Origin: a virus
Virus record (IMG/VR): IMGVR_UViG_3300023313_000003
Coordinates: 1 to 64,000 of that record
DNA: 64,000 nt
Direction: 5' to 3' (one strand)
The position numbers and the translations under genes were made by a program. Below, piece by piece: positions 6,257 through 63,388 of the stretch; position 1 is the stretch's first letter; every line of letters begins with the position of its first letter. A model generated the notes under the pieces. That model ran no database searches. It saw only the letters and a program-made list of their open reading frames with translations, and was not told the origin of the DNA.

Positions 6257-7396
6257 TTAATCCTCTGAGATATTAGTAGGCATTGTATTTCCTACATATT
6301 TTTCGGTATTAGAAGCATCCATCATAATAGAACCAAATAGCTCTTGATATTTATCAGGATTTTCTTCTAAAAATTGAGCAGCCTTAGTTGCGCCTTGAAA
6401 AGATTCCCCATCATACTGAAACCAAGAACCTCTAGTTTCAATCATTCCAAGTTTTGAAGCAAGATCTACCATTTCTAATTCAGTATTCACTAATCCTTTC
6501 ATATAAATCATATCAACATATCCAACTCTTCCAAGTCCTTCAGCCATCTTATTCTTTTCACAAGTCCAATTAGAACGCTGGCCTATTTGAACAGGTTTAC
6601 CTTTAATATCTTTAGTATTCTCAGCTAAGATTGGTTTATTTTCATCTTTAACTATTAAATAACGATATTGAACTTCGTGATAAAGTGACTCTCCACCATT
6701 AGTTTCATAGATAGTATTACCAAAAAAATCTACACCTTTAATTCTTGCTTGGTTTATAAATAAAACATAAGGCCTATGATTTCTTACAAATTCTCTAAAG
6801 AAAGGAAAGATTCTAGCAAGATAATTAGCTCTTGCTCCATGATCCTGTTTAGCTAGGTTAGCTATATTTTTCTGGTTAAGAGTTGTTGGCATTTCTTTTA
6901 CACCCATAGCTGCTATTGAATCCATTACGATTCCTCCAACTTTAACTCCATCTTCTAGTATAGCTTTATGTAATTTCTGTAAGATATGAACTTCAAATAT
7001 CTTTTTAATATTGACTTCTCTAATAATCAAAACTCTCTTAGTATCAACACCATTAGCTCGCATCCATCTAACTGTAGACTCAAACTCAAATCCAAGTTCA
7101 GCATCAACGAATACACAAATAAATTCAGGATCAACTGCTAATATATTCTTGATTCTATCAAGAGCAATCATTGTCTTTCCTGCTGACTTTGGGCCATACA
7201 TTAATTCCATAGCTCCAAATTGAAACCCAGCAGCGGTACTCCATGACATTGATGGAGATGTTGAAAAGAAATTCTCTCTTTGAGGAACTTCTTTAGCCAT
7301 ATCTTCAACAATGGTATCAGCACAATACATTTTTTCTTCTTTTAAAAGACTTCCAAATAAACTTTTAGGTTTATCTTCCTGTTTTTTCTTTGCCAT
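6257..7396 (-). CDS. RecA/UvsX-type recombinase
   Basis: RecA-fold strand-exchange ATPase. Walker A reads GPKSAGKT (about residues 69-76; bacterial RecA has GPESSGKT). VFVDAELGFE corresponds to the motif holding the catalytic Glu, and GGIVMDSIAAM is Walker B. A downstream FINQARIK matches the RecA loop that follows Walker B (INQxR). At 379 aa it is close to UvsX and RecA. It sits directly upstream of the gp47/gp46 pair and one gene away from the single-strand binding protein, the normal T4-type recombination set. It contains no intein, unlike the polymerase gene nearby. Confidence 0.88.
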   Translation of the reverse strand: MAKKKQEDKPKSLFGSLLKEEKMYCADTIVEDMAKEVPQRENFFSTSPSMSWSTAAGFQFGAMELMYGPKSAGKTMIALDRIKNILAVDPEFICVFVDAELGFEFESTVRWMRANGVDTKRVLIIREVNIKKIFEVHILQKLHKAILEDGVKVGGIVMDSIAAMGVKEMPTTLNQKNIANLAKQDHGARANYLARIFPFFREFVRNHRPYVLFINQARIKGVDFFGNTIYETNGGESLYHEVQYRYLIVKDENKPILAENTKDIKGKPVQIGQRSNWTCEKNKMAEGLGRVGYVDMIYMKGLVNTELEMVDLASKLGMIETRGSWFQYDGESFQGATKAAQFLEENPDKYQELFGSIMMDASNTEKYVGNTMPTNISED

Positions 7397-8740: not shown

Positions 8741-9292
8741 TTAATTATTGCTATTGTACTTTGGGCCATATATTATTGATTGAGATAGTTGTCCATTGAG
8801 AACTACATCATTCATCACATGCATCATTTCAACAAAATCATCACTGAATTTTGAAGGTATTAGCCAGTTTAAATCTCCTAATACACAATCTTCTCGATAA
8901 GGTGTTTCTACCTCATTCTTATTTAAAGCAGTTGTTCCTTCAGAAAGCAGCCAACAAAAATCCATATAAGTTGTTGCTACCTTATTGTCAGTTACAATCT
9001 CTTTGGGAAAGTATGAAGGAAGACTTGAAGCTATTGAAAAGGAAACTGTATTTTTATCTTTATTGTAATTAATTTCAGAAGCATAAACTCTATTGCCTCT
9101 CATAGTTGTTCTTGCAATTACAACATTTTCTAAATCTTCTGGCCATTTTTCTACTTCTCCAACAAAAGTTTCAATATCTAAATATATAACTCTTGCCTCT
9201 AAACCTATTTCTTCTTCAGCTTGCTTAAGAGTCAAAACATCAAATTTTAATTCATCGACCTCTCCTAGCTCTTTCTTCATTTCTTCATTCAT
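8741..9292 (-). CDS. Hypothetical 183-aa protein next to DnaE
   Basis: Acidic soluble protein, coupled to the polymerase gene by a UAAUG stop-start overlap with GGAGGA in front. The strand-like segment EARVIYLDIETF superficially resembles motif I of 3'-5' exonucleases (DxE). However, the rest lacks convincing exonuclease motifs II and III, so a proofreading role is not claimed. Tight coupling to DnaE suggests a replication role. Confidence 0.6.
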   Translation of the reverse strand: MNEEMKKELGEVDELKFDVLTLKQAEEEIGLEARVIYLDIETFVGEVEKWPEDLENVVIARTTMRGNRVYASEINYNKDKNTVSFSIASSLPSYFPKEIVTDNKVATTYMDFCWLLSEGTTALNKNEVETPYREDCVLGDLNWLIPSKFSDDFVEMMHVMNDVVLNGQLSQSIIYGPKYNSNN

Positions 9293-12200
9293 TAGATTCC
9301 TCCATTATATATTATTCTTAATTGCTCTTCTATTGTTCTTAAATGAGTTACTGCAACTTGTGGTCTGCTTAACCAAAAACTCAATTTACCTTTTACCCAA
9401 ATAACTTTATCTTTATTCAGTAATTTTTTATATTTTATACATTCATTTTCCCAAAGTTTCAAGTTTATTTCATGTTTATTGTTTTCAATAATTAGATTAC
9501 AATACTCAGTATTTTTTTTAGTTTTCAGGAAGGTAGCACTCTTTATCTTACCTCCAACAACTACAACTTGGCCATCCATTCCATTTATAAGTTCATCTAA
9601 TTTAACTAAGTATTCTGAATCAAAAGCTTTACTATATATATTATAATAATTAACCCTTATGAAATCTAAAGACTCTTGTTCAAGATTAATTCTATTCTCT
9701 TTATTTATATGACAAAGTTTGTCAGGAATTTCTTTATCTTTTCTTAACCTCAAAAAGTATTCATCAATTAATTCTTCTTTACTTAAGCCAAAAGAATTAA
9801 AAGCACCCGAAAAAATTAATCTTACAAATATAGTTTTGTTTATAATCCTCTTGTTTACTCTCTTGAAGAAATCCTCTAGTGAAGTAAATGGCCTATTATT
9901 ATAGATTTCATCATTAGCTTTAATTCCTACACCTTTAACTACTGAAAATGGCATTTGAATAATATTGTCTTCGGTTATGTAAAATTCATCTGTAGATTTA
10001 TTAATATCAGGCAATCTAACTAAATCAAAAGCAGCATCATAATAAGATGAAAACTTCTCATTCTTATCTATAGAGTGAGTTAAGCAACTAAACCACCATT
10101 CCATAGGGTAATAAGTTTTAAGATATTGGCAGATATACCCAATGTAAGCATAACAAATTGAATGGCTATTGTGGCTTATAATATTATTAGCAACAAATAA
10201 ATTTGGTGAATCCTCCATTTCTACATCATAAGTATCTTCTAATCCTACTTTTGTAATTGATAAGATCTGCTCGTAACCTATAAGCAAACCTTTACTGTAT
10301 TTAACCACCCTTTTCCCAATCTTATAGTCTTCCTTTTTATGACAAGAATTACATAATTTACTAATATTATTAATATTATTATTAATAGGATTTCCATCTT
10401 TATGATGATGTTCTGGTTTTATTATTTTTGTGAAGTATATTCCACAATTACTACATGACAATTGACATGCTAATTCTTCTTTTCTTTTATTATATTCTAT
10501 ATATCTTCCATCTATATATCCGTGATTTAACTTTCCAGATTGAAATCCTTTGCTACCTTTTGTATTAGTATAATTAATATTTTTATGAATATATCCTCTA
10601 TTTTCAGACTCAGTTCTTGGTTTTGTTTGCTTTTCAGTTCCTAAATTTACTGCTATTTTAATGTCCATTCTATTTATCAACTGTCCAATTTCAATATCAC
10701 CATGATTAGTATGTAACCTATGATCAATACTACCTTTAATAGACTTCCCACTTACTGTTACAACTTTAAATAGCTCCTTTTTACCTGTGTAGGTTATGTT
10801 TTTAATAGGTCTAGGCCTAATTTTATTATCATTGTTTGGTGCTAATATACTACCATAGCCATATCTTCTTAATTTTTTAGCATAATGTACTTTTCCTGTT
10901 TTTTTTACATATTCATTATCGTTAACTAATTTATATAGATGTTGAATTTCAAAAGATTGTGGAGAACCATTACCTGATGAACATCCTCTAGTGACTAAGG
11001 TGTCTCCGCTTAAGCATTTATTAAACCCATAACCAGCAAAAGTTTCCATTAGATGCCAAATCTCTTCAGCTTTATCTTTATTAATATCAGTATACTCTTT
11101 TTGAGCATTTTGTATGAATCTTTCCTTGTATGGTTTCAGTATTGACTTCTTCTTCTTACCCATGGCTTTTCTAATATCATCTGCTTCAGCTAATGAGAAT
11201 CCTCCAAGTATTTGAGAAGCCTTCATTACTGATTCTTGATATATCATAATCCCATAGGTATCTTTTAGAGATTTATTTAAAGAATTATGAGGAGAAACAC
11301 ATTCTAAATCACCATTTTTTCTATTAATAAACTCGACATGTTGTTGATTCTGCATTGGGCCTGGCCTCCCAACTGAAGTAACTAAAGACAAATCATCAAG
11401 AGATTCTATCTTTATTTTAGTTAGTATATTCCTAGCAATATCTGAATTAAACTGGAAAACTGATTCAGTATCTCCTAATGCAAACTTATTAAAAACATCT
11501 TGATCATTTATTGGGATATTATAAATATCAATATTTATATTATGTCTCTCCTTAATCATAGATACTGCTGTTGCTATATATTTAAGAGTAGTTAATGATA
11601 GAATATCATACTTAATTACCCCTACACTCTCAGAATTACTTAAATTAAAATCTAAACATTTTTCATTTTTTATAGTTCTGATTGGGATTAAAGTATTGAT
11701 CGGGTCTTGAGTAATCGCAAGCCCACAAGGATGCCTACCAACCTGTCTATTGAATCCAATTAATCTTGATACGCACTCCCCTATTTTTGGATATGTATCA
11801 AACAAAACCTTTTTAATACCATCATCTTCTTTTAATGCTCTCTCATAAAATTCTGGTTCGCTCTCTAACTCTTCCTTTTTAGGGAATGAAGTTGTTATTT
11901 TATTTACTATTGTGAAGCTAGTATCTGGATAGTATAATTTAAAAGAATCCTTAATAGCAGTTTTTGTTCTCATAGTTTGCATTGTACCAATTGGGACAAC
12001 TCTATCTGCACCATATTTTTTTACTAAGTAGGCTTTGGCCCATTTTTGATCTGAAAAATCTAAATCAATATCTGGATAAGTTCCTTTGATAATTCGAGCT
12101 TGTGATATAAAACGCTCAAATAATAAACCATTAGAAATAGGATCTAAATGAGTAATCATTAAGCAATAATTTAATAATGAACCAGCTCCAGAACCACGGC

Positions 12201-13335
12201 CTGGCCCTACTGTAACTCCATTTTCTCGGCAAGCTCTACATAGATCTTCGATAACTAAAAAATAATCAATTAAATCAATTTTTCCATTATCAGTAATTGT
12301 ACTTAATTCATATTTTAACCTTTCATAATACTCAGGATCATTCTTCATTCTGCCATAACCAGTAATTATAGCACTAACTAAAGCCTTTTTATTCATTCCA
12401 TCTTTATGAAGAGGGTGGGTTATAATTGGGTAATTTACAACTTGGTCTTTAAAAGAAAGATCAATATCTTTACATTTATCAATTACTTCTCTTGTATTAT
12501 TCATAGCTTCTTTTACTACTCTCTTAGATAAACCAAACAAAGTAGAAGTAGCTATTAACTCTTGAGTTGAACAGATATGTCTATTCTCTCTAACATAAAA
12601 TCCTCTTTTACCTTCAATGCTATTCCTAACACAAACATCTTGAAGAATCTTATCTGCTTCTTTTGGAATCATTGAATCTGATGTTATAACAATTTTTATA
12701 TTATTTTGCTTAGAAAAAGAAATTATATCATTATTACTATCAATTAATGGATTTTTTTCATACTTCTTACAATAATCCTGAATACCATAATCAAACTGAA
12801 AACTTTGATTAGAGATGGTTAATTCTAAGTATAGATCGTCTTTAAATATTAAATGTAATGTTAAAACTCTACTTACTGCTTTTGAGTAAGCTTCATTTCT
12901 AGGATAACTTAAGTAATCCTTTCCCCATACCCCATCAATCCCTCCAGTTAAACAGAGTAAGCCTTCAGAAAAATCCTGTATGTCAGCTATACTGCAAGTT
13001 GGTTCTTTAAATTTATGTAAATTCTCATAAGAAAAGGAAATTATCTTGCATAAATTCCTATAACCAACTTGATTTTTTGCCATTAAAACTATCTTATAAT
13101 TATCACAACCATCGATATAATAATTTAACTCACACCCTATAGAAATAGGAAAATTATACTTCTTACCTACATTATAAGCATCAATTCCTCCACCTAATGA
13201 ACAATAATCAGTAAAAGATAACCCATATAATCCTGATTCTTTAGCATGTTTGATTCCATCTTCAACTGATCCTATAGCTTGTCCACATGAATAATGAGTT
13301 TTATGATGCAAATTTGCGTACTCTAATTCTTTCAT
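9292..13335 (-). CDS. dnaE: DNA polymerase III alpha-type (DnaE) replicative polymerase with intein
   Basis: C-family replicative polymerase, 1347 aa including a 283-aa intein (1064 aa after splicing). Order: PHP domain at the N-terminus (LHHKTHYS in place of the usual LHxHSxYS); palm motif GPGRGSGAGS (about residue 377); catalytic PDIDLDF (about residue 421); VGRHPCGLAI; the fingers motif GYGFNK split by the intein from SHSICYAY; a helix-hairpin-helix region; and a C-terminal OB fold (from about GQVVVVGGKI). The start at 13335 was chosen for AGGAGA a few bases upstream; the frame extends 18 codons further without a ribosome site. Neighbours encode primase, helicase, SSB and a clamp-like protein, so this is the phage replicase. 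The PHP metal residues look incomplete, so proofreading by this domain is uncertain. Confidence 0.92.
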   Translation of the reverse strand: MKELEYANLHHKTHYSCGQAIGSVEDGIKHAKESGLYGLSFTDYCSLGGGIDAYNVGKKYNFPISIGCELNYYIDGCDNYKIVLMAKNQVGYRNLCKIISFSYENLHKFKEPTCSIADIQDFSEGLLCLTGGIDGVWGKDYLSYPRNEAYSKAVSRVLTLHLIFKDDLYLELTISNQSFQFDYGIQDYCKKYEKNPLIDSNNDIISFSKQNNIKIVITSDSMIPKEADKILQDVCVRNSIEGKRGFYVRENRHICSTQELIATSTLFGLSKRVVKEAMNNTREVIDKCKDIDLSFKDQVVNYPIITHPLHKDGMNKKALVSAIITGYGRMKNDPEYYERLKYELSTITDNGKIDLIDYFLVIEDLCRACRENGVTVGPGRGSGAGSLLNYCLMITHLDPISNGLLFERFISQARIIKGTYPDIDLDFSDQKWAKAYLVKKYGADRVVPIGTMQTMRTKTAIKDSFKLYYPDTSFTIVNKITTSFPKKEELESEPEFYERALKEDDGIKKVLFDTYPKIGECVSRLIGFNRQVGRHPCGLAITQDPINTLIPIRTIKNEKCLDFNLSNSESVGVIKYDILSLTTLKYIATAVSMIKERHNINIDIYNIPINDQDVFNKFALGDTESVFQFNSDIARNILTKIKIESLDDLSLVTSVGRPGPMQNQQHVEFINRKNGDLECVSPHNSLNKSLKDTYGIMIYQESVMKASQILGGFSLAEADDIRKAMGKKKKSILKPYKERFIQNAQKEYTDINKDKAEEIWHLMETFAGYGFNKCLSGDTLVTRGCSSGNGSPQSFEIQHLYKLVNDNEYVKKTGKVHYAKKLRRYGYGSILAPNNDNKIRPRPIKNITYTGKKELFKVVTVSGKSIKGSIDHRLHTNHGDIEIGQLINRMDIKIAVNLGTEKQTKPRTESENRGYIHKNINYTNTKGSKGFQSGKLNHGYIDGRYIEYNKRKEELACQLSCSNCGIYFTKIIKPEHHHKDGNPINNNINNISKLCNSCHKKEDYKIGKRVVKYSKGLLIGYEQILSITKVGLEDTYDVEMEDSPNLFVANNIISHNSHSICYAYIGYICQYLKTYYPMEWWFSCLTHSIDKNEKFSSYYDAAFDLVRLPDINKSTDEFYITEDNIIQMPFSVVKGVGIKANDEIYNNRPFTSLEDFFKRVNKRIINKTIFVRLIFSGAFNSFGLSKEELIDEYFLRLRKDKEIPDKLCHINKENRINLEQESLDFIRVNYYNIYSKAFDSEYLVKLDELINGMDGQVVVVGGKIKSATFLKTKKNTEYCNLIIENNKHEINLKLWENECIKYKKLLNKDKVIWVKGKLSFWLSRPQVAVTHLRTIEEQLRIIYNGGI
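10168..11016 (-). mobile_element. Intein with HNH endonuclease inside DnaE
   Basis: A 283-residue in-frame insertion (residues 774-1056 of the polymerase) begins with Cys at block A (CLSGDTLV) and ends with VANNIISHN, followed by Ser as the +1 residue. The flanking exteins join as GYGFNK/SHSICYAY, an uninterrupted DnaE motif. Block B reads GSIDHRLH (Ser where Thr is common, His retained) and block F reads TYDVEMEDSPNLF. Between them is an HNH endonuclease with two CxxC pairs (CSNC and CNSC) around EHHHKDGNP. All splicing residues (C1, penultimate H, terminal N, S+1) are present, so it should splice and may still home. Confidence 0.93.
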
Positions 13336-13400
13336 TCTATCTCCTGTTTTTGGTAAAAATAGATTAGAATTAATTATTGAATAAAGCAAGGATTTAGAAT

Positions 13401-13966: not shown

Positions 13967-15064
13967 CTATATAATAATTCTTTTATTATTGGCCCATTCA
14001 AATAATGACATTGATTCTTTAATGTTGCAAACATTATCTTTTATTGAATACTGGCCAGGGTCTGTGCCTTGTTTAGTACATACTATTTTAATATCATCAA
14101 TAATAATTTCTAACTGCCTAAATATTTCAATAGTTGAAAGATCTCCTGATATATCTCCATCCATATATATAATTACACTTTTAGCTTTTTTTTGTAATAT
14201 TTTAACTTGCCCATCATTTAGAAATTTACCAAGTAAAGCTATCGAGTTAGGAGTTTTTAAACAATCAAAAGGGCCTTCAACTATAACAACAGGCTTATTC
14301 CAATTAATATTATCTTGATTAAAGAATATTGTTTTCTTTAAGTTCTTAGAGTTTAAAGTTTTAGGATAATGAGATTCAATTAAAGGATTATTGCAAACAG
14401 GACAATTTTCTGGAGCATTGTCTTCACCTGTATAATAATATTTATTATAAAGTTCACAACCATAATGCTCACATCTAAAATGTTTCTTAGTCCATCGACT
14501 TGTTATATCTCTACCTTGGTAGCCAATCATAACTCCATTTTCTGTAAAAGGAGAAATTACTCTTTTAGATAAAGTAGAATACATTAGTCCAAATTTTTTT
14601 ATAATATTAAAATTGTTAATTCCTCGACCTAATAAATAATCATAAGCTTCAGGAATCCTATTATAATCTTCCTTAGTACATTCTATTTTTTTAAAGTGCA
14701 TCGGGATTTTAACACTTTCTACGGGATTTAGTTCATTTACTTCATTTTTTTTGTCTTCTTCCCCAATTTTTGTAAAAATATAATCATCACAATACTTAGC
14801 AACTCCTTCTCCTCTAAACATATCTCTCATTTCAAAAGTATTATAACCAAGCAACTTAAATAATGAATAAAGATTTCCTTTACCTTCGTCTGGAGATTTA
14901 CCATTACACTTAAAACATATCCATCGATTCACTTCTTTACTAATATAAAGCTTTCTACTGGCATTACACTCAGGGCAATCAATAATAAAATGAGTATCAT
15001 TTTGGTGGTAGTTGCATCCAGTATCTTCAAGAATATCTTCAATATCTACATCTTCTATGTTCAC
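13967..15064 (-). CDS. DNA primase (zinc-finger plus TOPRIM)
   Basis: 365 aa. The N-terminal zinc-binding region has Cys pairs CPEC and CFKC (about residues 34-57), as in DnaG/gp4-type primases. The TOPRIM core has VVIVEGPFDCLK (catalytic Glu) and IIYMDGDISGD (DxD). A second four-Cys cluster (CEHYGC and CPVC) lies just before the TOPRIM domain. The start is GTG, formed in the overlap UAGUG with the helicase stop. It should make RNA primers for the adjacent DnaB-type helicase and DnaE polymerase. It is shorter than bacterial DnaG and lacks a clear C-terminal helicase-binding domain. Confidence 0.85.
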   Translation of the reverse strand: MNIEDVDIEDILEDTGCNYHQNDTHFIIDCPECNASRKLYISKEVNRWICFKCNGKSPDEGKGNLYSLFKLLGYNTFEMRDMFRGEGVAKYCDDYIFTKIGEEDKKNEVNELNPVESVKIPMHFKKIECTKEDYNRIPEAYDYLLGRGINNFNIIKKFGLMYSTLSKRVISPFTENGVMIGYQGRDITSRWTKKHFRCEHYGCELYNKYYYTGEDNAPENCPVCNNPLIESHYPKTLNSKNLKKTIFFNQDNINWNKPVVIVEGPFDCLKTPNSIALLGKFLNDGQVKILQKKAKSVIIYMDGDISGDLSTIEIFRQLEIIIDDIKIVCTKQGTDPGQYSIKDNVCNIKESMSLFEWANNKRIII

Positions 15065-16440
15065 TATTTACTCTGAGTAATGGCATGAGAGTTATCATGA
15101 GAAGGTGATTGATCCTGACCATATTCATCTGAGGAGATAAAGCCAAGACCTTCTTCTTCAGAACCATACATTGCGGCATAGCTCATATCTGTCTTACATA
15201 TTTGAACAATACCTTTTGCTCCATCCCTCTGCTTCTCTAAGAGTATTCTAATAGTCTCACTAGCAATATCCTTATCAGAACGATTTAGAGTTAAAACTGT
15301 AGCCGCGGCCCTAGTCATATCAAAACACTCAGCAACATCAACTAGTCTTAATAAATTACCTTGGTTATTTTTATTTTGAGCATCCCTATTCCCTTGAGCA
15401 ACTGTAATTACTGCGCAATCATGCATACTCGCAATTGAAGCCAAGCCTCGATGAACATACGACATTTGCTCCCTCATAGTATTAAACTTCTGAGAGGTCT
15501 TTAGTATTTGACCATAATCAACCATAACAACATCAAAAGGAAATTCTTCTTTAACATCTTCACATAAGGCTATAAATTTTTCTAAAGTATAACTCCAATC
15601 CCCCATGTGATAAATTCTTATATCGTCTTTGTATTCTGATATAAATTTGTTCTTTTTCTCTATTTCTTTCTCATTTAGATTATTAAACCTTACTCTTCCA
15701 TAAGGAACTTTAATTGCTCTTGAAGCAATTCTTAATAAAGGCTGAGTATCTTGGCCTTCAAGATTTAGATATAAAACTTTGAATCCATCTTGTAAGAATT
15801 TCCATGAAGAGTTCAGTAAAAATAATGACTTACCAACATTTGTCCCACCAAGTACAACAGTTAAAGTTCCTCTAGGGATTCCCCCACCCATTGCTCGATC
15901 TATATCTGGAAGTCCTAACGCTAAAAGCTTATCTTCGTTCTCTGCTGACTCTTCCATAACTTTAGTTAAATCTTTTAATGAGAAGTATTTTTGATTATCA
16001 AAATCGATACCTTTCATTGCATCAACATCTTTCTCTATATTCTCTAAAATCTTATCAGGGTCTTTAAATTGGCCATTAACTAATTTTTGGTTGATTTTGA
16101 AAGCGATTGCCTTCTTTACAAATTTAGCTACATTTTCCTTTATGTATTTAAAATTACGCTTTATTTGTGGCTTCTGAACCTTTTTTAATAACGCTTTATA
16201 ATCCTCAATTTTATCTTCATCAAACTTAAATAACTCATTTTCCATCATAGAATAAGTTACATAATCATATTCTGCATATAATCCTTTAACTAAATCAAAA
16301 AGTAATCCTATTGTTTTATTTGAAAAATAAGATTTCTTCAATAAATCTAAGGACTTCTTAGCAAAAGTAGGATCTTCTACTAATATTTGAATAACCCCTA
16401 ACTGAAAATTTGCATCGTAATTAAATTGAATTTCACTCAT
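15064..16440 (-). CDS. DnaB-type replicative helicase
   Basis: 458-aa RecA-fold hexameric helicase. The N-terminal helical domain covers about residues 1-150. The ATPase core shows Walker A GGTNVGKS (about 197-204) after GGIPRGTLTVVLG, Walker B VVMVDYGQIL, and the conserved AQGNRDAQ (motif H3 with Gln/Arg). It is co-translated with the primase gene, as expected for a helicase-primase pair. AGAGGATA precedes the ATG at 16440. It is the first gene of the leftward replication unit beyond the 605-bp control region. No loader gene was recognised. Confidence 0.88.
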   Translation of the reverse strand: MSEIQFNYDANFQLGVIQILVEDPTFAKKSLDLLKKSYFSNKTIGLLFDLVKGLYAEYDYVTYSMMENELFKFDEDKIEDYKALLKKVQKPQIKRNFKYIKENVAKFVKKAIAFKINQKLVNGQFKDPDKILENIEKDVDAMKGIDFDNQKYFSLKDLTKVMEESAENEDKLLALGLPDIDRAMGGGIPRGTLTVVLGGTNVGKSLFLLNSSWKFLQDGFKVLYLNLEGQDTQPLLRIASRAIKVPYGRVRFNNLNEKEIEKKNKFISEYKDDIRIYHMGDWSYTLEKFIALCEDVKEEFPFDVVMVDYGQILKTSQKFNTMREQMSYVHRGLASIASMHDCAVITVAQGNRDAQNKNNQGNLLRLVDVAECFDMTRAAATVLTLNRSDKDIASETIRILLEKQRDGAKGIVQICKTDMSYAAMYGSEEEGLGFISSDEYGQDQSPSHDNSHAITQSK

Positions 16441-37300: not shown

Positions 37301-39203
37301 TTAAGTGTAGTCCATAAACGGCTAATCCTGAGCTATTTCCATTAACAGCATTTATTAATGCTGTTAGAGTATTTATAGCTGGCTTATGCGCTCTCTCAGA
37401 TAAATCAATAGATCTACTTATAAGCGTTTCCATTTCTTTTTGGTTCAATCCAAAAGCATGAGTCGCACCAACTGTCTCTGCAACTAATTTCCTAAGAGAA
37501 GCTGTTGTTTGCCCTGTTGATGAATTGGTCTTTTTAATAAATCCATTCCAAGTTTCTGTTGCTTTGGAGGCCTCTTCTGCTGAATGAGAATACCCTCTTA
37601 ATGTTTGAAGAAAGGCAAAGGTAGATTGCTCTGCTTTGGCAAAATATTCTATTTGTTTAGTAGAGGCTTTAGTAAAAGAATTACCCATTTTAGTAATGAA
37701 ACCACCTAATGCAACAGCAGCTTGCTGAACTATATAAGCAAACCCACCAAATGCAGCTCCTAAAGCTATAAGAGTAACCCCTGTAAGTCTCTTCATTAAG
37801 GTGTCAGCTTGCAATAGAGAGTACCCCATTATACCAAAAGCAGAACCAACAGCTCCAGCTCTAGCAACAGTTCCTAAGAGTCCTTTATGAAAAAATTCAG
37901 TGTGCTTACCTATTGTTAGCATTGTTTTACCAAAATTTAGTCCAACAGATCCAGCTTGTGCTGTTGATTTTGCAAATCTTACTAAAGAAGATCCTGAACT
38001 TACTATGATTTTACCAAATGATTTAACTCCTAATGATAAATTTTTAAATCCACTTTTAGATAATAATTTTATATTTGTTAATGTTGACTGAGATGACTTT
38101 GATATAATTTTAAATGCATTAGCCATCTTAGAACCTAAAGCTTTAGATAAAAGAATAACTTGTTTTTTAGTTTGAGAAACTTTTAATTTGAATAAATTTA
38201 ATTTAGAAGTTTTCATAGCTCCAACACTATCCCCAGCACTGTTAAAAGCTTTCTCCATACTTTTTGCATTATCAATTATTGCATTAGAAACTTTTAAACT
38301 AGCATTGGTCGCAGTTTCAGTAAAATTTGATAAGGTGTGATAGGTAGTCATAAGAGAAGACTGAAGTATAGTTAAACTAGTATGAACTCCTTTAAGTCCT
38401 CCTGCTGCTAATTGTAACATTGCCTTATTTAGCTTTAAGGCCACTGTATCAAAAACAGTTACTACTGCTTTATTAAGTCCTCCAAAATCACCTGACATTT
38501 TTAGAATACTAGGTGATACACTAGAAGACATGGCTTTAATCGTTTGAGTTGTCGATTGTATTCCTGCTTTTAATGTAGTTAACCCTTTCTTAGATATATT
38601 TTTAAACCCTTCTTTAACTTCAGATAACTTTAAATTACTCATTGAAGTTTTTAATGTTCTAAAAGATTGACTTATTTTATTACTAGCAGGGCCAAAGGCA
38701 GCCATATTTGAAACAAGCTCATCAGCACGAAAACTAACTTTAAGCATATATTCTTCAAGGGATATAAGACCTAATTTAATAGGCACAAATGTCTGCTTTA
38801 TAACCGCTAGTCCAATAAAAGCACCACCAACGGCTAAGGTGGTATCTGCGATTCTTTGCAGTCCATTGGAGATTGAAGAAAAGGCTGAAGGATCATTCAG
38901 CATATCTAATGTCGTCACTAATTGTTCATTTTGATCTTTTAATGCTTCAGTTAAACTATTAGTTTTCTCCATATCTTTGCTAAGAACTTTTAAAGTTTTC
39001 GCTTTAGCTCTCATAGATAGATTTGAGGAAAGTATGCTTTTGACTAAGTATTCCTGACTGACAGTATTTTCTTGAGCTGATTGATTCGCAGTTTGAAGTG
39101 ACTTGGTATACTCTGAATTAATTATCTTTGCAGCCCTTCTAATAATTGGGGATAAATTATCAACTGCTGTTAAATTTACTTTTAAGTTTTTTTCTATTGC
39201 CAT
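34353..39203 (-). CDS. Tail tape measure protein
   Basis: 1616 aa, mostly helical. It has several hydrophobic segments (for example about residues 450-510 and 880-1010) and long Gln/Glu/Lys coiled-coil stretches between about 1130 and 1490. The C-terminus has the ending typical of tape measures: GGGQAHGGMDSIPQSM, SFLLKGGERVLQPEANK. It sets tail length and is expelled on infection. At the usual ~1.5 angstrom per residue it predicts a tail of roughly 240 nm. It lies directly downstream of the two tail assembly chaperone frames, the conserved order in siphophages. Confidence 0.9.
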   Translation of the reverse strand: MAIEKNLKVNLTAVDNLSPIIRRAAKIINSEYTKSLQTANQSAQENTVSQEYLVKSILSSNLSMRAKAKTLKVLSKDMEKTNSLTEALKDQNEQLVTTLDMLNDPSAFSSISNGLQRIADTTLAVGGAFIGLAVIKQTFVPIKLGLISLEEYMLKVSFRADELVSNMAAFGPASNKISQSFRTLKTSMSNLKLSEVKEGFKNISKKGLTTLKAGIQSTTQTIKAMSSSVSPSILKMSGDFGGLNKAVVTVFDTVALKLNKAMLQLAAGGLKGVHTSLTILQSSLMTTYHTLSNFTETATNASLKVSNAIIDNAKSMEKAFNSAGDSVGAMKTSKLNLFKLKVSQTKKQVILLSKALGSKMANAFKIISKSSQSTLTNIKLLSKSGFKNLSLGVKSFGKIIVSSGSSLVRFAKSTAQAGSVGLNFGKTMLTIGKHTEFFHKGLLGTVARAGAVGSAFGIMGYSLLQADTLMKRLTGVTLIALGAAFGGFAYIVQQAAVALGGFITKMGNSFTKASTKQIEYFAKAEQSTFAFLQTLRGYSHSAEEASKATETWNGFIKKTNSSTGQTTASLRKLVAETVGATHAFGLNQKEMETLISRSIDLSERAHKPAINTLTALINAVNGNSSGLAVYGLHLNSTAIKQSNLNQELKDNFNKLGDVEKGQARYNVLMEQAGLAAGFASSNADTYSKALKLQKNATKELMQELGKGGQIINGQVVMGLAKLTSGFTNLVKPILPAIGFIQALSGRLMQVGGVLLQNSLLIGLVTSSLGALNAGLASSAGMKVFSSQLPFINKSLSEMAMGVTGVAGKFGSLKEVAGTGLSVLKVKVAGAIKSILGMEAASKLTARSIAVSLISSIKAATIATWKWVVANKVLLIKITIIIAIAAALYKAVTMLEERFKIFSKVVDTLSKAFASVADSAEKANKSSTSLAEILSGMLGTAIKVVAVGILALVNGIMTLTLAVGGLSQIFNYLGLSSLAMSDKKMQGLTSSIMQLSETMGTLSGEVAGDVVNGFISTAGASDKVGHSVKNLKQNLEKLSSSFNKIVKEGEAAFEFVSDLTPSLNLQKIKADSAKFSAQLQKIITKGQELNQALIKSGSDWGAVDKNSEKILAAMEALEANKIKIQQETRNSQIAQVQIGLDQEMSKVFTTEMEIAQMKRDQAVNIKDMKIELLTQELITKRKLEAKYGLSNNESALLAANETELQMFEQNLQAKMALSISSEQQKQAALANIKAGLLGGTSAGAGAEDQAEIINTEIRMNKIKALKMQGKISEIEMQKSFNEISDQLELELSTRRQARANAEIEMQKKMHDTKLAAIQEKTMKELELQTQRAELLGLTDDGLAAQMAKQEEQHQLELERLQFEQENKVITEDQFRLAREQREIQHKNKLKEIELRFYQDKAKIAQDAGNRAEQFRARMRASQIKNGQALGAIMAVQQTSEYKNTGKILDMTSKLRGSKDKDMFEVGKAAAITSSIMNTFAGATAALAPPPVGAGPLLGPLLAGVTVAAGIANVAQIKAQKFGGGQAHGGMDSIPQSMSDKSFLLKGGERVLQPEANKDLTGYLKDRKEGSGGNTYNFTINADRDSNIEGIKQAVIEGIREASERGEPIISDKGVIAS

Positions 39204-50092: not shown

Positions 50093-52708
50093 TTAGAAAT
50101 TAAACATAAAATCAAAAGTATTTTGAGTCCGATCAATATCTAGTATATTGTCTATATAATTAGAGTCGCCTTTCATGTGGTAAATAACTGAACATCTGCA
50201 ATTTATAACTTCTTCTGCTGGGCCTTTTGCTTCTCTAGGGAAGTCTAATCCATTACTAAAAGACTTATCAGAGGCAACTTCTTCACCATCTAAGATAACA
50301 TGATTTGCTTTATCTCCATTTAAAGGACTTCTAACTTGTCCATCTTGTGCGGTTATCCAAGTTTTTAATAAGTTGTCTTTAAAATTAGGAATTTCATTAG
50401 ACAACTTTTCTACTTTTATACTTTGACCTTGAGAAACTGCTGTTAAAACTTCAGTTCTTGCTATAGTATTCGCTCTACCTTGTTTAATTTCATCAAAAGT
50501 TTCCTGTATCTTAAGAGATAATTCTTGAGAGGAGTCTTGAGCTTTAAAAGAATCGATAATAACCTTTTTTATTTGTTCTCTTGTTACTTCAGTTACTCCT
50601 GTAATTTTTTCTGCTGCCCTTTTTTTTAACCAATTAGTAGCTAACTCATTAGGATATGAAGTTGCTTGTTTAGGTAAAGTTCTGGAGAATCCTAACTCCA
50701 TAGCTGCTAAATCTGAATCTGAAACTTTTACACTTTCTATCTCTACAAATTGAAGAATCCAATCAAAAAGAGGAAGCCCTTCAATATCGCTATCATCTTT
50801 AGTTAAACTTTTAAAATCAATTTTATTTATATCTTCTAAAACTAAAACCTTCATTCTATCAAACATTTCTTGAACGTCTTTTAACTTAGCTTCAATTAGA
50901 GGTTTAACTCCATCTCCAGTTAGTGCTTTACAATATTCTTGTAATTTTAATTCTTTCTCATTTAAGTTTTTTTTTTCTTCATCATCTTGTGAAGCTTTAG
51001 GATTTTGTGATTCATCTTGAACTTCACTATTAGGCTTAACTGCTTCTGAGTTTTCTCCCCCTGGCGCAAGACCTTCAGCTACAACTTGCTCTATGGCCGC
51101 GGTTAATGCTTGGCCTAATGGAACTCCTGAAGCAATTAAGATTCCTACTAGTTGAGAAAGTCTTTCCGCATAAGTAGCCCGAGTTGGTTCAATGTCTGAT
51201 AATGTAGCTAAATCTGGTTGAGGAGCTTCAATCTTAGTTTCAATATCGTTTGGAGCAGAAGCTTCAGTATTAGAATCTGAAGAAGAACTGCCATACATAT
51301 CTTGAGTGTTTAAAGTAGAAACAATTAAAGGAACTTGATTACCCATTTCTACTGCTGGTTTTTTCCAGATCTCTTGTCTGATTTCATTTATTGACCATCC
51401 TGCTTTACTCATTAAGATTGCAGTTTCAGCCTTGTCTTTTATACTTTCTTGAAGAGCTTCAATCATAGAAGTATCAAAAGAAAATTTAAGATTTCTTTCA
51501 ACATTTAGAATATCTAAATCTAAGTTGAAAGCATCTTCAATAAACCTTTTCATAGGTATTACTGTATCTGTCCAAAAGATCTTTTCTTGAACTAAAGCGT
51601 TCGCATAAGTCGCTCCATCTAAGAGGCCAACTTTTACTGGTGGAACTCCATAAGCTGACAAAATTGGTTCTTTATTAAATTTAGAAAATTCAACCAAAGA
51701 AGTCTCGCCAGGGTTCTGTTCAATAGTTTGGTAATCCATACCTTCAGGAAGGATTAATGTCTTATGATGATTATTTTTTCCAGTGTAGTCATTTTCAAAC
51801 GAACGAGTTAATCTTGTTAGCTGATCTTTAGTGAGTTTTTTAGTAGTTTTTATTACTCCACCAAGTCTTGCACCATTCTTATAAAATCTAATCATGTGTT
51901 CTGAAGTGAATTTATCAATTAATACATGTTTAAGCACAGGAACAAGAGGAGCAAGCCCATTAAAAGCATCAGTAGGATTAGGAAGTCTAATATGAATTAC
52001 TTCATCTAAAGTAAATTGATACATTCCATCTTCAGTTTGCATTGAGTACCCAACTAATTCATAAGTGTTACCATCAAATACAGGTTCAACTAGTGAGGAG
52101 TTAAGTCTATACATAGAATGTACGTTTGATTTTCTATGAGATCTTATTTGTTGTTCTAACGCAGAGACTGGCCTTGAATCTCCTTCAATTTCACCTTCTT
52201 TAGTTTTAAGAATAAAAGCTTGACCTGTAGCTAGAAGGTCAATTAAGACCAACATATAAAATTCAACAGGCAATTGAGATTGATTTGGGTAAGTTAGTAA
52301 ATCATATTCTGGTTCTGCTGATGCATCTATCCAAGTTTCTTTGTAAGTAGTTGTTTCATTTCCTTTATCATCTGTAAGTATTTGTTTTTGTATCTTTCTT
52401 TTCTCTAATTTGATGGGAAGTGTTGAAATAGTCTTTGCAATTGTGTGAATTACTATAAAAACCCACGTTTCAGAGGCATAAAGACGCTGTAAAGTCGCTG
52501 AATTGATCGTTTCACCAACAACCCCCATTATATCAGAAGAAGAGTTAGAACTGCCATTACTGTAGTTTTTAGTGTCTAAAGCCCTTAATTCTGCCTCTAT
52601 ATCGCTTTCATCTAGCTTATTCTCTAGTTCAAGTATCTTATTTTCCAAAATATCAATCTTATTCTCTTGTGGATTTTTTAAGATTGTTTTTTTTATTTGT
52701 TTAATCAT
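50093..52708 (-). CDS. Portal protein fused to Mu F/SPP1 gp7-like minor head domain
   Basis: 871 aa. Residues 1 to about 440 are a phage portal of the SPP1/HK97 kind (helical N-terminus, then GVVGETINSATLQRLYASETWV, ETSLVEFSKFNKEPILSAYGVPPVKVG, and the clip/wing region). A Gln/Ala/Glu-rich linker (about 460-620) follows. Residues about 690-850 match the Mu F/SPP1 gp7 head morphogenesis domain: NTIARTEVLTAVSQG, KTWITAQDGQVRSPLNG, DGEEV and the end VINCRCSVIYH. In most phages these are separate neighbouring genes. No strong ribosome site is seen before the ATG. Portal and ejected minor protein are thus one chain here. Confidence 0.85.
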   Translation of the reverse strand: MIKQIKKTILKNPQENKIDILENKILELENKLDESDIEAELRALDTKNYSNGSSNSSSDIMGVVGETINSATLQRLYASETWVFIVIHTIAKTISTLPIKLEKRKIQKQILTDDKGNETTTYKETWIDASAEPEYDLLTYPNQSQLPVEFYMLVLIDLLATGQAFILKTKEGEIEGDSRPVSALEQQIRSHRKSNVHSMYRLNSSLVEPVFDGNTYELVGYSMQTEDGMYQFTLDEVIHIRLPNPTDAFNGLAPLVPVLKHVLIDKFTSEHMIRFYKNGARLGGVIKTTKKLTKDQLTRLTRSFENDYTGKNNHHKTLILPEGMDYQTIEQNPGETSLVEFSKFNKEPILSAYGVPPVKVGLLDGATYANALVQEKIFWTDTVIPMKRFIEDAFNLDLDILNVERNLKFSFDTSMIEALQESIKDKAETAILMSKAGWSINEIRQEIWKKPAVEMGNQVPLIVSTLNTQDMYGSSSSDSNTEASAPNDIETKIEAPQPDLATLSDIEPTRATYAERLSQLVGILIASGVPLGQALTAAIEQVVAEGLAPGGENSEAVKPNSEVQDESQNPKASQDDEEKKNLNEKELKLQEYCKALTGDGVKPLIEAKLKDVQEMFDRMKVLVLEDINKIDFKSLTKDDSDIEGLPLFDWILQFVEIESVKVSDSDLAAMELGFSRTLPKQATSYPNELATNWLKKRAAEKITGVTEVTREQIKKVIIDSFKAQDSSQELSLKIQETFDEIKQGRANTIARTEVLTAVSQGQSIKVEKLSNEIPNFKDNLLKTWITAQDGQVRSPLNGDKANHVILDGEEVASDKSFSNGLDFPREAKGPAEEVINCRCSVIYHMKGDSNYIDNILDIDRTQNTFDFMFNF

Positions 52709-59942: not shown

Positions 59943-60557
59943 TTAAACTTTACAGGGCATTAATACGGCCTTTTCAATGCCTTGTATTGCTTTTCCAGTA
60001 ACAAGAATAGGCTTAATTGTGCAAGTATCCTTTTCAAGTATCATTTTTTTATTAATGTTAAATGTTATTATTTTTGTTTTCCCTGAATTTTCCATGCTAG
60101 AAACTAAATCTTTTAATAAGTCAAAATTAAAACCTATTTTAAAATTTTCTTCACTTTCTTTTAAATTGCCTAGAATACTATCAAGCTTTACATAATCCCG
60201 ATCAATTACATTCAATTGCATTAAAAATTTATCTCCCAATTGAATAATTAAATTGTCACTTAATGAAAAGGTTAACTCGGGGCCTTCTTTTTTGTACTCT
60301 TTTAATATGGCTTTTAATCCCTTTTCATTATTTCTATTGATTATTAAGCCCTCTTTGAAATTATCAAATAAAAACTCATTAAAGCCCCTATCGTTTAATA
60401 TAGTTTGATTCATGCAAAAGCCATTTGTTGATTCTAGTATTACAGTGTCATACTCTCCGGGCCGACAATTTACCCCCATTAAAAAAGTTCTTGTTTCATC
60501 TTTTGAAGCAACTTTAATTAAATTTGTAATTGTTTGAATTGTTTTTTTGTAAATCAT
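59943..60557 (-). CDS. DnaN-like sliding clamp fragment (two-domain)
   Basis: 204 aa. Residues 1 to about 65 match clamp domain II (I..LIKVASKDETRTFLMGVN, then LESTNGFCM, compare bacterial DETRPILTGV and VATDGHRLA). The C-terminal region matches domain III (FKIGFNFDLLKDLVSSM and the end KAVLMPCKV, compare EIGFNVSYVLDVLNAL and YVVMPMRL). Domain I is missing; bacterial DnaN has three domains in ~366 aa. Two-domain chains could only close a six-domain ring as a trimer, like PCNA or T4 gp45. AAAGGAAAACAAA precedes the ATG. It would tether the DnaE polymerase encoded 47 kb away in the window. Homology by eye is moderate. Confidence 0.6.
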   Translation of the reverse strand: MIYKKTIQTITNLIKVASKDETRTFLMGVNCRPGEYDTVILESTNGFCMNQTILNDRGFNEFLFDNFKEGLIINRNNEKGLKAILKEYKKEGPELTFSLSDNLIIQLGDKFLMQLNVIDRDYVKLDSILGNLKESEENFKIGFNFDLLKDLVSSMENSGKTKIITFNINKKMILEKDTCTIKPILVTGKAIQGIEKAVLMPCKV

Positions 60558-61234: not shown

Positions 61235-61435
61235 TTATATTGTTTTTAATATTTTAATTTCTAACGCTTGAAGTCTTTTAATCTTTCTTAAGACTAATAT
61301 TTCAATAATTGAATTTTTATTATATTCTAAGAACTCAATTAAAATTGTTTTCTTGCCTTTTAAGATTTTAATTTCTTCTAATTTATAAGCCGTTTTAATT
61401 TCTTTAATTGTGTTTTTTAAGTTTTTGTAATTCAT
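61235..61435 (-). CDS. Hypothetical 66-aa protein
   Basis: Very basic helical protein rich in Ile/Leu/Lys (LKNTIKEIKTAYKLEEIKILKGKKT). AAAGG lies 7 nt before the ATG. No homologue recognised. Its hydrophobic-basic helix could bind nucleic acid or membrane. Confidence 0.45.
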   Translation of the reverse strand: MNYKNLKNTIKEIKTAYKLEEIKILKGKKTILIEFLEYNKNSIIEILVLRKIKRLQALEIKILKTI

Positions 61436-61463
61436 TTTTTACCTTTTATTTAAGTTGATATTT

Positions 61464-61547
61464 CTAAATTAATGATCTTTTTATTAACATAATTATTTTG
61501 TAATGTTTTGCTGAAATTCTCGCTTCAAATTGTTTTAATGTTTTCAT
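61464..61547 (-). CDS. Possible 27-aa peptide at the head of the operon
   Basis: ATG at 61547 with AAGGG 9 nt upstream, stop at 61464. Sequence MKTLKQFEARISAKHYKI..., basic. It is the first frame after the gene-free control region, so it could be a leader peptide or a decayed gene. Evidence is the ribosome site only. Confidence 0.3.
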   Translation of the reverse strand: MKTLKQFEARISAKHYKIIMLIKRSLI

Positions 61548-61849
61548 TTTTTAAATCCCTTGTTTTTCGTTACGGCTATAATTGCGTATATACGTTATTC
61601 CGTCAAGTTTTATTTGTCTATTATTTCAAGTTTTTTTTAATTTATTTTAAGTTTTAACGTATATCCTTATAAAATCAATAACTTACGGCTTAATCTTTTT
61701 TTATAATTATTGAATAATAATTAAAATAAGCTTATTTTTTTAAAAAAATTTAGACGTTTTTTGTGGTTTAAATGAAAAAAGGCATATTTTTTAAAAATAT
61801 AAATGACCACTAATATATATATTTTAGCCATACGTTCCTTATTTTCACA

Positions 61850-61892
61850 AGGCCCGGGCCTCTCTCATACGCTCTCATACGCTCTCATATCG
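61850..61892. repeat. GC-rich palindrome plus three CTCTCATACG repeats
   Basis: The 12-bp palindrome AGGCCCGGGCCT (61850-61861) is followed directly by CTCTCATACG (61862-61871), CTCTCATACG (61872-61881) and CTCTCATATCG (61882-61892). It is a strong GC island in very AT-rich DNA. Confidence 0.75.
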
Positions 61893-61956
61893 TTTCTAAG
61901 CGTCTTAAATTAAAACTTAATAAGTTAATCGGCTTGCGTTCTTAACGTATGTATAG

Positions 61957-61976
61957 GCTCGCTTAACGCTCGCTTA
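61957..61976. repeat. Direct repeat GCTCGCTTA
   Basis: Two copies of GCTCGCTTA (61957-61965 and 61968-61976) follow GTATAG. The context TATAGGCTCGCTTAACGC resembles the 20-bp repeat TATARGCTCACTCCGTTCGC further right. Confidence 0.6.
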
Positions 61977-62191
61977 GGAACAAAGTTATAATAAGTTTAT
62001 GATCTAAATATAATAAGAGATTTAAAAGGTTTATTTATAGTTTCTTTTTATGTGTTGATTGATTGATATGTGAAAGCCAATTGGGATAATTCTTTTATGT
62101 GTTGAAAATGTGTTTTATAAGATTCTTATATGTACCTATAGGACAAAGGCCACTGTTTTGAATGATTCTAATGGTTTAGGTGTTGTTGTTT

Positions 62192-62219
62192 ACCCCACAT
62201 AATTACGGTTATATGGGGT
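62192..62219. other. Hairpin ACCCCA-ATAA/TTAT-TGGGGT
   Basis: The outer 6-bp stem ACCCCA/TGGGGT and an inner 4-bp stem ATAA/TTAT are separated by one mismatch, with loop TTACGG. No T-run, so it is not a standard terminator. Confidence 0.65.
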
Positions 62220-62680
62220 TAAGTCGTTATATAATATGTAAGTAGTTGATAATAAGTTAAGTGAATAGGTGCTTAATGGTGCGGTTTTCGTATAGGGAAA
62301 GATAGACTTTTTAGGCATTGGCCGAGTGACAGGCTGTTTTTCTCGTATATGGTGCTTTTTTGAAGTGCTTTATTTTTCCCATAATAGCCTTTATTTAGCG
62401 ATATAGTTGTGAAGCTTTATATTCCTAAGTTCGTACTAATAAATCAATATATTACGACTCTCCACGTTACTTACTTGTATGTACCTGTTATCATTGGTGT
62501 TTGGTATGCCAAACAAAAGTTAGGCTTCTCATACTATTGGTTGATTGATTTAACAGACTTCTTTACTATGTAGAAGGTGCTTGGTAGCTAAGGTAAGTAG
62601 TTAATATTACACATGTAAGGAAAGATAAAGAAAGATATTGAAAGGTAGTAGCATTGCTTCAGTTTTCTTTACTGAAGGTG

Positions 62681-62820
62681 TATAAGCTCACTCCGTTCGC
62701 TTTTAGGAAAGGAGGTGAAAGGAGGTGAAAGGAGGTGAGAAGAGGTGAAAGGAGATTAAAAGAGCTTTTAGGAAAGGAAAGGAGAAGAGTAGTCAAGCTA
62801 TATAGGCTCACTCCGTTCGC
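62681..62820. repeat. 20-bp direct repeat flanking a purine-rich block
   Basis: TATAAGCTCACTCCGTTCGC (62681-62700) and TATAGGCTCACTCCGTTCGC (62801-62820) differ at one base and begin exactly 120 bp apart. GCTTTTAGGAAAGG also occurs twice inside the interval (62699-62712 and 62764-62777). This looks like two rounds of local duplication. Confidence 0.8.
62708..62760. repeat. Tandem Shine-Dalgarno repeat array
   Basis: A 10-bp unit GGAGGTGAAA is repeated at 62711, 62721, 62731 (as GGAGGTGAGA), 62741 (AGAGGTGAAA) and 62751 (GGAGATTAAA). This gives three full copies of AAAGGAGGTGA, the complete complement of the 16S rRNA 3' tail. No open frame follows on the plus strand, and the TGA in each unit closes all three frames. 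Read from the minus strand it is a repeat of the anti-Shine-Dalgarno sequence TCACCTCCTTT. Confidence 0.85.
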
Positions 62821-63001
62821 CTCTACTGGTCAATATACTGATTAATATACTTAGTTGATATATTAGTTATGTATTCTTTCTCTTATGTTTATATATATGT
62901 GTATATTGATATGTATAGTATATGAGTATTGATTATATAGGTTTATTATATGTATATGTATGTAATAGGTATAATTGTTATATATTGATTATAAGTATTA
63001 G

Positions 63002-63388
63002 TTATTCTTTTATGTTCTTTTCTTTTATTGATGCATTAGTTTCTATATTGTTTCTTGATATATATAGATAACTAAATAAGAAGATGGTATATGGAATTGT
63101 AATTGGTAGGAATATTATTGTTATTGTTATTTTTGTTATTAGTTCCATTATGTTAGTTTTGGGATAAAACCGAGATATGCTAGTTTTGGGATAATATTCT
63201 TTCCAGAATGTTTTTATTGTTTGGATATTTATATTATAGTTGTTTGTTTCTATTAGTTTATTATTGTTCTTATTTATGAAAGATAGATTTAATCTTAATG
63301 TTAATTTGTTTAGTAAAGCTATATTGTTTACTAATACATATAGACTTGAGTTGTTGTTTGAATATGTTCCACCTTGTTTAATTCTCAT
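63002..63388 (-). CDS. Hypothetical protein with C-terminal membrane segments, 128 aa
   Basis: The N-terminal part is Asn/Leu rich. The C-terminal 45 residues contain one long or two short hydrophobic segments (IIFLPITIPYTIFLFSYLYI) followed by a basic tail. The ATG falls within the upstream gene (11-nt overlap). No recognised family; likely inner-membrane anchored. Confidence 0.5.
   Translation of the reverse strand: MRIKQGGTYSNNNSSLYVLVNNIALLNKLTLRLNLSFINKNNNKLIETNNYNINIQTIKTFWKEYYPKTSISRFYPKTNIMELITKITITIIFLPITIPYTIFLFSYLYISRNNIETNASIKEKNIKE

Follow-up and report, generated by a model that had tools for sequence, protein, structure and literature searches.

Tandem purine repeats bearing Shine-Dalgarno words in the longest gene-free stretch of an uncultured phage: a possible DNA-level control region

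Why does a phage carry a run of perfect Shine-Dalgarno (SD) words in the longest gene-free stretch of its genome? We addressed this question in a 64,000-base window that opens a 79,485-bp virus record. The record is a linear contig without end repeats and represents a tailed phage whose minus strand carries nearly all genes; the terminase gene lies in the record beyond the window, and the features of the window are collected in the Table. A first-pass annotation had suggested that the repeat, if transcribed rightward, could act as a ribosome decoy and, if transcribed leftward, would imitate the 3′ tail of 16S rRNA; as an alternative, it considered a DNA-level repeat located at an origin or at a packaging site. 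In the reading that we prefer, with a probability of about one half, the array is a purine repeat that arose by slippage within a control region at the DNA level (most likely a genome end or an origin); its SD match is incidental.

Table. Coordinates of the array, its surroundings and landmark genes in the window.
Feature	Position	Strand	Remark
UvsX	6257-7396		window gene
DnaE-type polymerase	9292-13389	-	
DnaB	15064-16440		window gene
Portal	50093-52708		window gene
Clamp-like gene	59943-60557		downstream of the gap
Gene-free stretch (gap)	61436-63001		1,566 nt, longest in the record (ORF-based gap list)
Second 10-bp tandem array in the gap, CTCTCATACG x 2.8	61862-61889	-	purine-rich on the minus strand
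Left direct repeat, TATAAGCTCACTCCGTTCGC	62681-62700	+	
10-bp tandem array, GAAAGGAGGT x 4.8, 89% match	62707-62754	+	
36-codon frame, VRRGERRLKELLGKERRRVVKLYRLTPFASTGQYTD	62735-62845	+	from GTG in the third unit
Degenerate purine-rich continuation of the array	62755-62789	+	
Right direct repeat, TATAGGCTCACTCCGTTCGC	62801-62820	+	120 bp from the left repeat
Very A+T-rich stretch, poor in C, to the right of the array	62825-63000		62901-63000 entirely without C

The repeat structure proved to be as the annotation had described it, with three copies in exact register, degenerate units and flanking direct repeats. Exact copies of AAAGGAGGTGA occupy 62708-62718, 62718-62728 and 62728-62738, and to the right of the array the units decay to GAGAAGAGGT, GAAAGGAGAT and TAAAAGAGCT. 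The word GCTTTTAGGAAAGGA is present twice (62699-62713 and 62764-62778), and the two flanking repeats, 20 bp of the form TATA[A/G]GCTCACTCCGTTCGC, are identical at 19 of 20 positions. The region 62705-62755 is purine-rich, with a T interrupting the purines every 10 bp, and no other 60-mer of the record is as purine-rich or as G-skewed as the array taken together with its decaying right side. As a repeat, the array exceeds chance for the gap: its tandem score was 82-88, and none of 300 dinucleotide shuffles of the gap scored above 68. For the whole window the chance level is ~1%, as 1 of 100 whole-window shuffles reached a tandem score of 97.

The gene-free setting was likewise borne out. The gap is bounded by leftward ORFs, one ending at 61435 and the other starting at 63002, and the second-longest gap in the ORF-based list measures 605 nt. 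With a codon score close to zero, the ORF at 63002-63388 is doubtful, and the true gap may extend to 63377. Only 3 of ~100 predicted ORFs lie on the plus strand, not counting one with a negative codon score. Within the gap, G exceeds C on the plus strand, opposite to the trend elsewhere in the record. This skew starts near 62000, and the 1,300-nt segment at 62001 is the most extreme of the record (+0.37 versus a median of -0.17). We rejected a recoded gene over the gap: TGA is an ordinary stop in this phage (17/103 ORFs), and there is no long plus-strand frame in the gap.

Several other short repeats occur in the gap. At 61852-61889, a palindrome of G and C only, GGCCCGGGCC, precedes the 2.8 copies of the second array, an odd composition amid DNA of 25-30% G+C. 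A hairpin without a T run, TTACCCCACATAATTACGGTTATATGGGGTTAA, lies at 62190-62222. The plus strand of 62901-63000 has 0 C and 17 G in 100 bases, and the C-poor, G- and T-rich stretch that contains it runs to ~63300. Two 19-bp direct repeats, TATG[T/C]TAGTTTTGGGATAA, at 63149-63167 and 63176-63194 (27 bp apart, 95% identical) fall within the doubtful ORF at 63002-63388. Just right of the gap, the minus strand from 63754 to record base 64164 encodes a 136-residue protein that could bind the gap; its Fis-family helix-turn-helix (HTH_8) scored above the Pfam cut-off.

The complementarity to the ribosome was confirmed for a 16S tail of Bacillota type, assumed here for the host: the word GAAAGGAGGTGA is complementary to it along 12 nt. 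Elsewhere in the record, matches to this tail reach at most 9 nt. The three longest matches of the record all lie at the array, and the plus strand has five to six SD-like sites inside 80 nt. When the unit's own letters were permuted, 0.76% of the permutations matched the 16S tail equally well, a rate that is notable but not decisive for a single hit chosen from a long scan. The genes of the phage themselves depend on this SD signal: a 5-base SD core was in reach of 45 of 83 ATG starts versus 21 of 487 internal ATGs.

If ribosomes did bind here, one use would be translation of the array itself, with the tandem SD feeding the GTGs of the units to yield two peptides of 7 residues and a basic one of 36. 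The annotation had stated that no frame follows the repeats, which we had to correct: GTG 62735, located 9 nt past the GGAGG of the second unit, starts the 36-codon frame, and GTG 62715 and GTG 62725 each start 7 codons. A minus-strand ORF of 50 codons (62659-62811) also spans the array. A bacterial parallel favors such loading. The identical 21-base tandem AAAGGAGGTGAAAGGAGGTGA occurs in Patescibacteria JAMCQZ010000011.1, where it stands right before the ATG of ~205-codon frames, whereas in the phage it precedes only a short GTG frame. Because the Patescibacteria tandem precedes long-frame starts at two places, tandem SDs can, judging from this context, serve translation elsewhere than in the phage. 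The 36-codon frame, however, is probably not a gene. Its product had no match in Pfam or among phage proteins, and its codon score of 0.084 is at the low end of genes (mean 0.246, minimum 0.02). Its expression would also require a promoter directed opposite to the neighboring genes, on the strand that has so few ORFs. We therefore consider ribosome loading distinctly improbable. As to the Patescibacteria MAG itself, the perfect double SD was found at L023:447-467, L025:7012-7032 and L025:7728-7748; it precedes two similar neighboring genes, and L023:447 and L025:7728 are apparently one site.

The decoy idea of the annotation, taken further, would use the same sites differently: a rightward RNA with several perfect SD sites and almost no frame would trap 30S subunits and, during some phase of infection, restrain translation in the host. 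The crowding of SD-like sites and of the longest 16S-tail matches at the array is what such an RNA would show. However, a decoy would strike the phage too, because the phage genes depend on the same SD signal, and the array can partly fold against its flanking repeat in what is a hypothetical transcript. The second proposal starts from the leftward direction of the flanking genes, by which read-through RNA would bear three copies of UCACCUCCUUUC, imitate the 16S tail and mask the ribosome sites of mRNAs. Here again the phage's own SD sites would be masked, and this transcript, also hypothetical, has neither conservation nor a known parallel. RNA fold z-scores were -1.4 to -2.0 (array region; 906-nt plus strand) and the folds of both strands were unremarkable, by which we rejected a strongly structured RNA. 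No Rfam 15 covariance model reached its gathering score in the window, a relaxed scan of the gap gave only chance-level matches, and a known noncoding RNA was rejected on these scans.

Viral sequences at large gave no sign that viruses favor SD arrays. The 21-base tandem was absent among 2.9 million viral contigs, and three GGAGGT words at 10-bp spacing were found in 17 viral stretches, of varied settings, versus 21 for a reversed-letter control. No viral parallel was found, nor any published description of a ribosome-decoy SD array in the literature. With no enrichment of arrays in viruses, no unusual fold and an SD signal shared by the phage, neither RNA role gained support. We regard the rightward decoy as very improbable and give almost no credence to the leftward RNA; taken jointly, the two still have a very small probability.

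The same searches turned up other arrays. GGAGGT arrays in some other phages lie near ParA or a terminase. Integrase arm sites and partition iterons were considered and rejected, as the contexts differ between phages and no integrase was found among the scanned proteins of this phage. In four other viral contigs (L008, L011, L012 and L020), arrays of the GCGGAGGT type adjoin a common core, TAAGTCATTGA[A/T]ATCATT, which looks like a recombination site; the viral contigs L005, L007, L009 and L015 have GGAGGTGTC[G/C] arrays with a 10-bp period, with a ParA-like gene nearby in L005. The flanking-repeat word TARGCTCACTCCGTTCGC was present in five unrelated viral contigs, mostly intergenic. These five contigs have no array in common, and the word was dropped as a clue to a shared element.

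The skew of the gap raises another possibility, that of an R-loop origin. A rightward transcript from ~61999 would be hybridized over the G-rich plus strand, open the A+T-rich stretch and prime replication. The onset of the G-skew lies beside two plus-strand promoter-like sites (61963-61992 and 62063-62090; 10/12 matches, 0.73 expected), the non-template strand is purine- and G-rich, and the C-free A+T-rich 62901-63000 lies beyond. The T4 origin oriF combines a promoter with an A+T-rich unwinding element; the promoter is MotA-dependent and ~100 bp are required (PMC3016281). The gap would resemble T4 oriF and oriG in outline, by its candidate promoter, G-rich non-template strand and adjoining A+T-rich stretch. 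The A+T-rich C-free stretch and the repeats would suit an origin, but no DnaA box was found in the gap, and promoter matches mean little in A+T-rich DNA, where 14 of all kinds were found versus 16.9 expected, within chance overall. The transcript is again hypothetical, and the skew may have other causes. An R-loop origin is thus unlikely on balance. The phage also encodes a sigma-factor-like protein at record 78515-79105 (L004:17515-18105, minus strand; PHROG hits, Pfam just below the cut-off), so its promoters may not be of the sigma-70 type.

To place the gap among related phages, viral contigs were scanned with the portal, terminase and polymerase as queries. One close relative was found, a 10-kb contig (L003; portal 74%) that ends short of the array locus, and no relative covering the locus was present among the viral contigs scanned. 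There were also no DNA relatives of the region among phage or plasmid records. The polymerase query itself contains, at residues ~855-1074, an insert that matches intein-splicing weakly (22.6 bits, cut-off 35.8) and an HNH endonuclease; it is probably an intein or homing insert. By terminase, the nearest annotated phages were Tunturi_4, phiFa and P23-45 (27-30% identity), and in all three of these very distant relatives there are gene-free gaps rich in repeats whose units are unrelated. Around the terminase, the order of genes is unlike that of P23-45 and phiFa. In Tunturi_4, a Tunturiibacter phage whose terminase and UvsX are ~30% identical to those of this phage, the largest gap (64453-66824) holds 7.1 copies of the 10-bp unit TGTGTGTGTC. 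The likeness includes the 10-bp period, the location in the genome's largest gap, leftward genes and, as here, a clamp gene downstream; the unit, however, is unrelated, not purine-rich and without an SD word, and the shared proteins are only ~30% identical. phiFa has an annotated terminal-repeat edge at base 6638; beyond it lies a C-rich tract, and a 37-bp array comes ~150 bp farther on.

The title of Minakhin et al. 2008 reportedly names triplex-forming sequences in the Thermus phages P23-45 and P74-26. The longest gap of P23-45 (38117-38963) holds a 122-nt tract, ~95% purine, which is the most purine-rich stretch of that genome and has its purines opposite the gene strand; in all three respects (longest gap, purine maximum, strand relative to the flanking genes) it resembles the array. 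The tract includes AAAGGAGG once, and purine tracts therefore easily yield SD words. The P23-45 record OP542242 labels it a triplex and places it 33 bp inward from the edge of either terminal repeat. The two differ in that the mirror arms of the P23-45 tract are perfect over 25 bp and it has no regular 10-bp unit, whereas the array is interrupted by a T at 10-bp intervals and its mirror arms do not exceed 7 nt; the polypurine tract score is 27 here versus 86 in P23-45. Because the array is without mirror symmetry, triplex formation is not supported, and we rejected a triplex (H-DNA) element of the P23-45 type, which combines such symmetry with a long uninterrupted polypurine tract. In T7 and GBK2, the two genomes used as purine-tract controls, the most purine-rich 60-mers lay inside annotated genes and no extreme tract was seen.

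Because the gaps of the relatives are rich in repeats, their units are unrelated and two of them (P23-45 and phiFa) include a terminal-repeat edge, we read the array as a DNA-level control repeat. The gaps of the array phage and its distant relatives would correspond, and by analogy the gap here would be a genome end or an origin. The position of the array, in the longest gap and at the purine and G-skew maximum, supports this reading. Against it, gaps in phages as far apart as these relatives may not correspond. The DNA-level alternative of the annotation thus gave the best fit, but neither a terminal repeat nor an origin could be located in the contig. As far as such distant phages show, repeats varied at random and GGAGGTGA was not conserved, a pattern that the annotation had named as counting against its proposal.

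The main rival is neutral slippage, in which a purine word was duplicated in unconstrained noncoding DNA and is decaying, with both the array and its SD match inert. Consistent with this, the units decay gradually rightward, a second GCTTTTAGGAAAGGA copy and further short repeats lie in the gap, no similar sequence was found among phage or plasmid records, and the viral contigs searched lack the tandem. However, compact phage genomes seldom carry large gene-free stretches, and repeat-rich gaps are retained in the distant relatives too. We consider neutral slippage possible, a minority reading to be taken seriously. In the control-region reading, which we prefer, a polypurine tandem repeat would likewise grow and then decay via replication slippage in the main gene-free region, but that region would be a DNA-level control locus, most likely the packaged-genome ends or the replication origin. 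Any function would reside in the DNA, as a repeat or a strand asymmetry, and not in ribosome binding. The SD match would be incidental because the SD is itself a purine word; this coincidence costs the reading something, since so few permutations of the unit match as long.

If the control-region reading is correct, the array joins phages whose largest gap bears a fast-changing, strand-asymmetric repeat, the P23-45 example of which sits at the genome end. It would also provide a prediction for this uncultured phage, namely that 61436-63001 contains its packaged ends or else its origin. More generally, the locus suggests caution, as a polypurine repeat may contain perfect Shine-Dalgarno words that have nothing to do with ribosomes.
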